Translations under genes and position numbers: made by a program
Assembly (NCBI GenBank): GCA_007694035.1
Contig: RECM01000249.1
Span: 1 to 42,771, forward strand
Source: Balneolaceae bacterium
Lineage (GTDB): Bacteria; Bacteroidota; Rhodothermia; Balneolales; Cyclonatronaceae
Reading direction: 5' to 3'
DNA length: 42,771 bases
Shown here: piece by piece, positions 1-29,369 of the stretch
Numbering within the stretch: position 1 is the stretch's first letter
How the letters are laid out: each line of letters opens with the position of its first letter
The notes under the pieces: generated by a model
What the model saw: only the letters and a program-made list of their open reading frames with translations
Told to the model about the DNA's origin: nothing
Databases searched by the model: none

Positions 1-2
1 CG

Positions 3-566
3 TTATACAAACTCAGATCTTCCCTTTTTTATTAGTTTAGTGATTCGCCGAATGTTTTTGAACTGAGCTTCATCATGTCGTGCATCCAGAGATTCGTTCA
101 ATTGTTTTAAGGTAGTTGCATTTTCATAGATGGATTTTTCGTCTAGTTTCTTCTTTTCCAGAAACCACCCGACAACTTCCTGCCAACTCCAAAGCATCGT
201 TTTTGCAGTTACGCCGGCAATCGGTAATGGAAAATCACCATCCCCTCTGCCACCTGAAATGAGTTGCTGTACCGACTGTTTACTTCTGTGTAATCGCCTG
301 GCAATTTCAGCACTTGTTACAAAGTCTGATGGCTCTACACGTTTTACACTCAATGGCATTCCGGTTTGCTCTACCTGATGAATGGCTGATATTACACCCT
401 TTTCCAGATTCTCTGCTTCACGGTCAAAATCCAAATACGCAATTCCGTTTCTAAATGATAAAATCGCGTCATCACATCCGGCTTCAAAAAGCGCATCTTC
501 CATTTGGTCGGAGATCCCACCTGATGATTCTAAAACAAGAGTAAATTCATACGTTTTCATAGTCAC
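3..566 (-). CDS. HTH-type DNA-binding protein, putative antitoxin of a HicA-like pair
   Basis: 187 aa ORF; central helix-turn-helix-like segment 'VTSAEIARRLHRSKQSVQQLISGGRGDGDFPLP'; lies 7 nt downstream of a HicA-like ORF on the same strand. Confidence 0.65.
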   Translation of the reverse strand: MTMKTYEFTLVLESSGGISDQMEDALFEAGCDDAILSFRNGIAYLDFDREAENLEKGVISAIHQVEQTGMPLSVKRVEPSDFVTSAEIARRLHRSKQSVQQLISGGRGDGDFPLPIAGVTAKTMLWSWQEVVGWFLEKKKLDEKSIYENATTLKQLNESLDARHDEAQFKNIRRITKLIKKGRSEFV

Positions 567-573
567 TTCCTAT

Positions 574-801
574 TTAGCTGTGTGTGCATTTATCTACGGT
601 CCGAATGATTTGTCTGGCATGATTAACGGGTACTCTTGGCGTACTCCAAACCGAAATAATACAGCCCATACGGGATGATTCGGGACATTTCAATCTTCCC
701 CAGGCATGAGATGATTTTCCGGAATCTACAATTCTCCAGTTTTTCGCCACCGCATAATCGATCGCATTCTGTATTTCTTTGTTAGGATGTTTTTTTGCCA
801 C
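574..801 (-). CDS. HicA-like small toxin (dsRBD-fold type) candidate
   Basis: 75 aa; 'NAIDYAVAKNWRIVDSGKSSHAWGRLKCP' resembles the HicA-type core with a conserved G-x-S-H; operonic with the HTH protein. Confidence 0.55.
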   Translation of the reverse strand: MAKKHPNKEIQNAIDYAVAKNWRIVDSGKSSHAWGRLKCPESSRMGCIISVWSTPRVPVNHARQIIRTVDKCTHS

Positions 802-872
802 ATCGAATCAAATTTATGGTAAAAACAAGATAACAAAAACGTTGACCAAAGTAAACGCCTCTAAAAGAGTTT

Positions 873-961
873 GTATAACAAGCATTTACTGCTGACGTGT
901 TTACGTTAGTTGCTTATATTCAAAAACTAAGCCACGCAGCAGAAATGCAGAGCCGTTAGCC
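873..961 (+). other. attC-like integron recombination site (attC1)
   Basis: R''-like GTATAAC (873-879) and R'-like GTTAGCC (955-961); stem GCATTT-A-CTGCTG-A-CGTG (882-899) pairs with CACG-CAGCAG-AAATGC (933-948), leaving two extrahelical A's (888, 895). Confidence 0.8.
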
Positions 962-1040
962 ACCCGAATATTTCTTGCTCATTGTATGTTTCTTAAGGGT
1001 GGTTCGTTAAATTGATTCCAGATAAATACATTTCGCAAAC

Positions 1041-1220
1041 ATGGGTACTAAAGAGAACATTAAAAAACAGATAGATACCCTATCCGAAGGGGATGCTGAA
1101 AAGGTGTATCAGTATATGGTTAATCTCAAGGGTAAACCCACACCTAAAAAGCCGTTACCTTCTCTGGATTTAAAAGGCAAGCTTGACGATAAGAACATCC
1201 GCAGTCTGGCATATGACTAA
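1041..1220 (+). CDS. VapB-like small antitoxin candidate (59 aa, absent from the ORF track)
   Basis: ATG at 1041, translation MGTKENIKKQIDTLSEGDAEKVYQYMVNLKGKPTPKKPLPSLDLKGKLDDKNIRSLAYD*; overlaps the PIN-domain start by 8 nt (ATGACTAA). Confidence 0.7.
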   Translation: MGTKENIKKQIDTLSEGDAEKVYQYMVNLKGKPTPKKPLPSLDLKGKLDDKNIRSLAYD

Positions 1221-1626
1221 GGTTCTTGTTGATACGAATGTCCTGATATATGCTATTGACAGGAAATCAGCATATTACAATGATGCCAGGGCCGTATTGG
1301 AAACGGGTGAATATGAGCTATATACCACCTCAAAGAATCTGACTGAATTTCTGGTTGTAGCCACAAAATCTTCCGGTTATGGTTTGAGTACAGACATAGC
1401 AATTGACATTTTGGAGAAATTAACAGCCGGTTTAAGTGTACTGTATCCGAATGAGATTTCTTCAACGTTGCTGTCTGAATTAATTCGAAGCTATAGACCC
1501 ATAGGAGCGAAAATTCATGATTTTGAGATTGTTGCCATTGGTTTGGCTCACGGGGTGATAAATGTGGCGACATTTAACACGAAGGATTTTGCCGGGATAA
1601 AAGAGCTCTCGCTTATTAAGGCATAA
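1213..1626 (+). CDS. PIN domain-containing protein (VapC-like toxin)
   Basis: 'VLVDTNVLIYAID', 'NLTEFLVV', 'IHDFEIVAIGLAHGV', 'TFNTKDF' PIN acidic-residue motifs. Confidence 0.88.
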   Translation: MTKVLVDTNVLIYAIDRKSAYYNDARAVLETGEYELYTTSKNLTEFLVVATKSSGYGLSTDIAIDILEKLTAGLSVLYPNEISSTLLSELIRSYRPIGAKIHDFEIVAIGLAHGVINVATFNTKDFAGIKELSLIKA

Positions 1627-1632
1627 GCGGTT

Positions 1633-1723
1633 GGCTAACAATGCGGTTCAAGCGAACGGTGAACAATTTTGCAGTATATTTGAGAGTTCAAAGCCCCGTC
1701 GCTTGACCGCTGAGACGTTACCT
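1633..1723 (+). other. attC-like integron recombination site (attC2)
   Basis: R''-like GGCTAAC (1633-1639), R'-like GTTACCT (1717-1723); stem GCGGT-T-CAAGCG-A-ACGG (1643-1659) pairs with CCGT-CGCTTG-ACCGC (1696-1710), with two extrahelical bases (1648, 1655). Confidence 0.8.
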
Positions 1724-4824: not shown

Positions 4825-5226
4825 ATGGCAAACACTATGAAAAACCCGGTCAACTGGTTCGAAATCTATGTTCAGGACATGAAGCGAGCCAAATCGTTTT
4901 ACGAAACAGTACTGAATGTACAATTGGAAAATCTCCAGGTCCCATCCGAAATGGATGATGACGCTTCCTTTCAAATGATGACTTTTCCATTTGCTGATAA
5001 TGAGCCCAACGCAAGCGGTGCTCTCGTGAAAGCTGCCGGTATGGAACCGGGCGGTAATAGTGTCATGATCTATTTTACCTGTGATGACTGCGGTACTGAG
5101 GAAAGCCGTGTGATGAAAGCAGGCGGGAAACTGCTGAAAGAAAAATTCTCCATCGGTGAATTTGGGTTCTGCTCCATCTGTATGGATACGGAAGGGAATA
5201 CGTTTGGCCTGCATTCAATGAGCTGA
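4825..5226 (+). CDS. VOC (glyoxalase/bleomycin resistance) family protein
   Basis: 'NPVNWFEIYVQDMKRAKSFYETVLNVQLE ... FGFCSICMDTEGNTFGLHS'. Confidence 0.88.
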   Translation: MANTMKNPVNWFEIYVQDMKRAKSFYETVLNVQLENLQVPSEMDDDASFQMMTFPFADNEPNASGALVKAAGMEPGGNSVMIYFTCDDCGTEESRVMKAGGKLLKEKFSIGEFGFCSICMDTEGNTFGLHSMS

Positions 5227-5272
5227 CAGAACGGTGTGACAAAACAGTTTGGGAAAACGGAGTGTCTAAAAA

Positions 5273-5755
5273 ATGAATAAATTCAAAATTGAGGTAAAGT
5301 GGGCGTTTATTTTTGTCGGAATGATGCTCACATGGATGATTCTTGAGCGTTTGGCGGGGCTCCATGGGTCAAATATTGACAAGCATGCCATTGTCACGAA
5401 TTTCATTGCCATACCCGCGGTAGCCATTTATGTACTGGCACTGCTCGACAAGCGGAAGACCGATTACAACGGATCGATGACGTATATGCAGGGATTTATG
5501 GCCGGCCTCATCATTACGGTTATTGTAACCATATTCAGCCCTCTTATTCAGGTTCTGGTAGCCTGGGTGATTTCCCCCGACTATTTTGCCAACATGATTG
5601 AGTATTCTGTTCAGGAAGGAAAAATGACTCAGCAGGAAGCCGAGGCATATTTCAATCTGCCGAGCTACCTGGTTCAGGTACTGATCGGAACGCCGTTTAT
5701 GGGATTGATCACTACGGCAGTCGTTGCTCTGTTTACCAGGAGGGAAAAAACGTAA
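5273..5755 (+). CDS. DUF4199-like membrane protein
   Basis: 160 aa, 4-TM layout, 'KRKTDYNGSMTYMQGFMAGLIIT', C-terminal region resembling the family. Confidence 0.7.
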   Translation: MNKFKIEVKWAFIFVGMMLTWMILERLAGLHGSNIDKHAIVTNFIAIPAVAIYVLALLDKRKTDYNGSMTYMQGFMAGLIITVIVTIFSPLIQVLVAWVISPDYFANMIEYSVQEGKMTQQEAEAYFNLPSYLVQVLIGTPFMGLITTAVVALFTRREKT

Positions 5756-29000: not shown

Positions 29001-29369
29001 GGGGATGTACTTGGTTTCGACGGGCTGAGTACTATCACAGGTTGCATGCCGAGTTTACCCCTTATGTACTCGTAAAAAAACCTTTGGGATACTTAATTGT
29101 AAAAGGCAACTCTTACGATTACCGAATGGCTGCCTAACAGCCGTTCCGTTCTGTCTGCTGCCCGCCCGGCGGCGGTTTGCAGAGCGACGCTAATGCCGGG
29201 CTGGCAACAACTATCGGCTGTGTAGTTGGTGCGAGAAATTAGCAGCCTGGCTTCAGGGCGCTGTGCTGTCCGGCTACCCCTGAAGTAAGATTCAACCCGA
29301 CAGATAAGCATGTAGACGCTTGCTGGTTTGCCTTCCCGGACCCGGGTTCGACTCCCGGCATCTCCACCA
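29001..29369 (+). ncRNA. ssrA: tmRNA (transfer-messenger RNA)
   Basis: 5' GGGGATGtacttggtttcgacgggc and 3' gggttcgactcccggCATCTCCACCA pair as an acceptor stem; internal tag ORF GTA AAA GGC AAC TCT TAC GAT TAC CGA ATG GCT GCC TAA. Confidence 0.95.

Follow-up and report, generated by a model that had tools for sequence, protein, structure and literature searches.

We assign the left 1.7 kb of the window, the whole 42,771-nt stretch of DNA analyzed here from a Balneolaceae bacterium, to the distal end of a cassette array belonging to a chromosomal integron, a reading to which we give a probability of about 0.94. The window is an entire contig, C257, out of the 279 that make up a 4.0-Mb draft genome, which is 89.5% complete. 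Its gene content may point to a host near Balneolales or Rhodothermota. It carries two attC sites of one family and two cassettes with defined boundaries, and an intact integron integrase gene, intI, lies elsewhere in the same genome. The attC sites, the cassette logic and this intI support the proposal of an earlier note that an integron-like cassette array ends here.

The two attC sites are made up as follows:
873–961, forward strand: attC 1, with R″ GTATAAC at 873–879 and R′ GTTAGCC at 955–961
882–899: 5′ arm of attC 1, GCATTT(A)CTGCTG(A)CGTG, with extrahelical A888 and A895
933–948: 3′ arm of attC 1, CACG-CAGCAG-AAATGC
1633–1723, forward strand: attC 2, the final attC of the array, with R″ GGCTAAC at 1633–1639 and R′ GTTACCT at 1717–1723
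1643–1659: 5′ arm of attC 2, GCGGT(T)CAAGCG(A)ACGG, with extrahelical T1648 and A1655
1696–1710: 3′ arm of attC 2, CCGT-CGCTTG-ACCGC

In a strict architecture scan, in which a 5+1+6+1+4 stem and its loop had to stand between AAC and GTT and to bulge on the 5′ arm, both sites reached 15 of 15 stem pairs, and across the whole window at least 13 pairs were found at these two positions only. When both strands of 60 Markov windows matched in composition were scanned in the same way, 389, 52 and 4 matches had 11, 12 and 13 pairs, respectively, and none had 14 or 15. Together with the covariance models and the covariation described below, these pairings bear out the two attC-type sites proposed earlier at 873–961 and 1633–1723, as well as the statement that their extrahelical bases always lie on one arm, which is the 5′ arm in each. 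Folding energies were lower than those of shuffled sequences, with z-scores of −3.6 to −3.8 for attC 1 and −2.4 to −2.6 for attC 2; a comparison of bottom and top strands showed no clear preference for the bottom strand (−17.3 versus −16.7 and −17.5 versus −18.3 kcal/mol). No Rfam entry matched either window site at gathering thresholds, and promoter and terminator scans gave no excess over shuffles. The outcome of simpler scans depended on how the R boxes were treated. A first one required five of seven R-box bases to be complementary, although the two boxes of a given attC derive from different cassettes; it caught attC 1 and, for that reason, missed attC 2 and the other members of the family. 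Another, with a stricter R′ consensus, also missed attC 2, whose R′ (GTTACCT) deviates from GTTRRRY at two positions. The pattern CTAAC-N-GTTAR was discarded as an attC detector, since its matches were mostly due to chance and fewer than those of the reversed control.

The idea of modeling the attC of individual taxa is an established one (PMC8352920), and we built two covariance models for this family. Model R1 was made from four attC sites, including the two in the window; model R2, intended to lessen circularity, was made from 48 attC sites taken from 25 genomes of the order, the genome of the window being left out. Because R1 includes the tested sites and the seed sites of R2 were found through R1, neither model is fully independent and some circularity stays. 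With R2, the window sites scored 87.9 bits (E 1.4e-21, attC 1) and 54.1 bits (E 5.1e-12, attC 2), far above background. Over the whole genome, R2 found nine sites on seven contigs, namely C257 (two), C259, C162, C121, C131, C173 (two) and C102, of which the last two in this order are weak (29–30 bits), so that seven further attC sites, two of them weak, are present besides the window pair. The DNA of attC 1 itself recurs on other contigs of this genome, and several of the sites (C121, C131, C173 and C102) are degraded. Matches to R1 were found in 32 of the 41 genomes of the order. Among the 48 sites from other genomes, 91.8% of cells are paired and 15 of 23 pairs are altered on both sides, with a covariation score of 0.384; shuffled versions score 0.133 and slid ones no more than 0.078. 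One variant of the attC, common to three genomes (L044 10125–10215 on C121 of this genome; L209 and L214 in G008; L210 in G005), is longer by a block of some 20 bases (AGCGCTTCGCGGTA...), which is confined to the 5′ arm and possibly forms an extra mini-hairpin.

The attC sites divide the left end of the window as follows:
1–2, forward strand: end of the preceding recombination site, bases C and G, with the cut after base 2 (G^TT)
3–955, forward strand: cassette 1, from TTATAC... to G955
956–1717, forward strand: cassette 2, from TTAGCC... to G1717
1718–1880: right boundary, followed by other genes, with no further attC up to the window end
1882–2712: CPBP protease, first of the genes beyond the array

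The start of a cassette is expected to match its own end, and the matches found here uphold the cassette limits of 3–955 and 956–1717, cut at G^TT, that had been proposed. Positions 3–14 are, as claimed, the exact reverse complement of 867–878 (12 of 12 bases), and the start of cassette 2 agrees with its own end, around the R″ box GGCTAAC at 1633, in 10 of 12 bases of the reverse complement, seven of them consecutive. Most cassettes in the arrays of relatives show the same agreement of their ends, the matching run being usually 6 to 16 bases long. The two bases that precede cassette 1 bear on what lay to its left: CG|TT is found in 86 of 91 attC sites of this family, compared with a background of 156 out of 795 GTT in the window preceded by C, and the attI-like sites of relatives read TG|TT or AG|TT. 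From these bases, the left neighbor of position 3 was therefore most likely another attC and not attI, so that the array would have had at least three attC sites, at least one of them before the start of the contig. A direct junction of the left end of the window to C131 through overlapping bases was ruled out, as the bases past the cut differ. To the right of 1718, no further attC was found up to the window end, the next best model match scoring 15.2 bits (E 0.52). Among the genes farther along the window is a tmRNA (29001–29369), the predicted tag peptide of which, VKGNSYDYRMAA, ends in MAA, LAA being more usual.

One integron integrase above the family cut-off is encoded in the genome, outside the window, at C64:142–1116. 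It is an open frame of 324 aa that scores 396.8 bits with TIGR02249 (cut-off 265); the intI that was to be looked for in this genome is present and intact. Its best PDB match is the integron integrase 2a3v (E 4.6e-70, residues 11–322 aligned), and inspection of this alignment by eye indicates that the tyrosine-recombinase motifs and the preceding integron-type segment are kept. A search of genome contigs with IntI returned distant relatives only (46–53% identity). In the order, intI above the cut-off occurs in 22 of 41 genomes, and a tree of 101 IntI proteins places the order's sequences together to one side of a branch (96/94). Only 141 bp of C64 precede intI, and the DNA there is 91% identical over 219 bp to contig C210 of the related genome G001; as the latter continues to an attI-like end and then to attC sites, C64 stops just short of attI. 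The intI of G001:C210 (L195 1963–2933) is 96% identical but matches in two pieces that lie in different frames, a possible frameshift. Arrays of attC adjoin intI in three relatives (G030, G006 and G001), and in the closed genome G030, intI has 12 attC sites of this family next to it in canonical orientation, in agreement with the earlier placement of the integrase/attI platform to the left of the window. C257 begins inside the presumed preceding attC, and no contig of the draft links the window array to the intI of C64, to which it may be physically joined.

Each of the two cassettes carries a pair of small genes:
3–566, reverse strand: PDC-M06B-like HTH protein, 187 aa, second gene of its pair, with its stop codon at the cassette start
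574–801, reverse strand: PDC-M06A-like protein, 75 aa, first gene of its pair (PADLOC PDC-M06A, E 2.7e-26)
1041–1220, forward strand: putative antitoxin, 59 aa, in VapB position, overlapping the vapC start
1213–1626, forward strand: VapC-like PIN-domain protein, 137 aa (Pfam PIN, E 5.4e-10, over the cut-off)

The 187-aa protein of cassette 1 matches PADLOC PDC-M06B (E 1.6e-28) and phrog_2620, an excisionase/regulator family (E 7.2e-37). Both genes of PDC-M06, a PADLOC phage-defence candidate, are thus matched and adjacent, as this system prescribes, and their order is that of the homologous adjacent pair on plasmid AP025633; here the pair sits in an integron cassette and is reversed relative to the array. 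A literature search on the name PDC-M06 gave no paper. As PDC-M06 has candidate status only, a defence role is putative, and we regard the pair as a candidate phage-defence or toxin-antitoxin-like two-gene unit. On another contig, C156 (L041 13654–14128), a decayed copy of the PDC-M06B gene of cassette 1 lacks its middle and is left as two pieces, 93% and 87% identical; an attC-like match of low score (17 bits, E 0.15) adjoins it. The pair of cassette 2 is likely a toxin-antitoxin. As in type II VapBC, a PIN-domain VapC is preceded by a small overlapping gene; unlike in typical members, the VapC-like protein stays under the curated cut-off of the NCBIfam VapC family (E 1.9e-9), and the 59-aa protein has no family match in profile searches, its antitoxin label being derived from its position. 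Chromosomal integrons are known to carry toxin-antitoxin cassettes that bring promoters of their own (PMC11023631). By eye, a reversed VapBC-like gene pair also follows the attC at the start of contig C259 (L043 100–1000), and is itself followed by a gene with the appearance of argG.

Sites of this kind without a nearby integrase, when two or more in number, are termed CALIN (IntegronFinder, PMC9024848). C257 taken alone, with two attC and no integrase, counts as one; it differs in that the contig ends inside the array and an intact intI exists elsewhere in the genome. We considered whether the window array is truly such a case, stranded away from the integrase by platform decay or rearrangement and mobilized only in trans. 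This is a sub-case of the integron explanation, with real attC sites and cassettes in an array that is unjoined to the C64 integrase, and we put it somewhat short of an even chance. The spread of attC over seven contigs, several sites being degraded, points toward it, as do two relatives: the closed genome G007 has intI as fragments only, with no full gene, and an attI-like sequence occurs in it at five dispersed places (four of them exact matches to the pattern, the fifth a variant), several of which head arrays; G001 has other genes left of the nearest conserved chromosomal block, which is homologous to window positions 4868–5739. However, both window attC sites are undegraded, and the contig of the intact intI is also broken at its array side, so that a single split integron is equally possible. 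Near-identical attC sites are known to hamper assembly and to raise CALIN counts in drafts (PMC9024848), which fits the fact that C162, C259, C257 and C131 all end at or near an attC. CALINs spread over several loci have been described in Xanthomonas (PMC12444791).

Some of the other attC sites of the genome may be relics. The attI-like copies of G007 lie on its contig C1 (L187–L191) near 753.7 kb, 936 kb, 1.361 Mb, 2.855 Mb and 4.199 Mb, and share about 165 bp of conserved upstream DNA. With its fragmented intI and these attI-like copies, G007 tentatively favors platform decay and duplication over insertion of cassettes by IntI, singly or in small groups, at non-attI sites. The latter, attG-type insertion, was described by Loot et al. 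2024, as related in papers that cite that work (PMC11023631, PMC12901181). For the window array, we consider it unlikely. The other attC sites of the genome are indeed scattered, and on C131 a lone lipoprotein-like cassette, with a sharp G|TTAGTG start and eight bases matching its own end, immediately follows a pntB-like gene, and no attI-like sequence was seen to the left of this cassette. Yet the first cut in the window is preceded by C, as after an attC, and the window array is therefore not a lone insertion. Moreover, the lone cassette of C121 follows 15 bases identical to the attI of G001, which makes descent from an attI more likely in that case; no empty site was seen in G001, whose homologous contig ends inside the left flank of this cassette. 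A broader scenario, in which the cassettes of the order were dispersed by IntI or by repeated copying of the intI–attI platform, with the chromosome as a reservoir and the window array as an outpost, appears rather unlikely. Finally, the notion that the sites are not attC but dispersed palindromic repeats (REP or MITE type) or terminators, which could draw on the conserved loop sequence and on copies scattered over several contigs, was dropped and retains next to no credence, as it is contradicted by the G|TT cassette-end logic and end matching in arrays, the intI-adjacent arrays of G030, G006 and G001, the conserved one-sided bulges and the covarying stems.

Bacteroidota is among the many phyla in which integrons have been recorded (PMC8618304), with a complete one in Salinibacter ruber (PMC9024848), and the integron to which we assign the left end of the window is a further example of the already known chromosomal integrons. 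With the sedentary chromosomal integrons of the Vibrio type, which have taxon-specific attC such as VCR, it shares an attC family of its own, present throughout the genome and the order, small toxin-antitoxin-like cassettes, an intI of the TIGR02249 family and, in G030, the canonical layout. It differs in that attC sites and pieces of array are scattered, and the window array reaches the contig edge before any intI. The array would be active in recombination: IntI would cut the bottom strand of attC, folded as a bulged hairpin, between its G and TT, and the cassettes would exit as circles and enter at attI, the IntI of C64 being the likely enzyme for the window cassettes. The two-gene units, PDC-M06A/B and VapBC-like, plausibly help to retain the array through addiction or phage defence. 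Taken together, these results add a chromosomal integron lineage that is well supported and has an attC family of its own, for which a covariance model works across an order, and place a candidate phage-defence gene pair inside an integron cassette. In this genome and in G007, the scatter of attI and attC copies would be well suited to testing how cassettes come to leave arrays.
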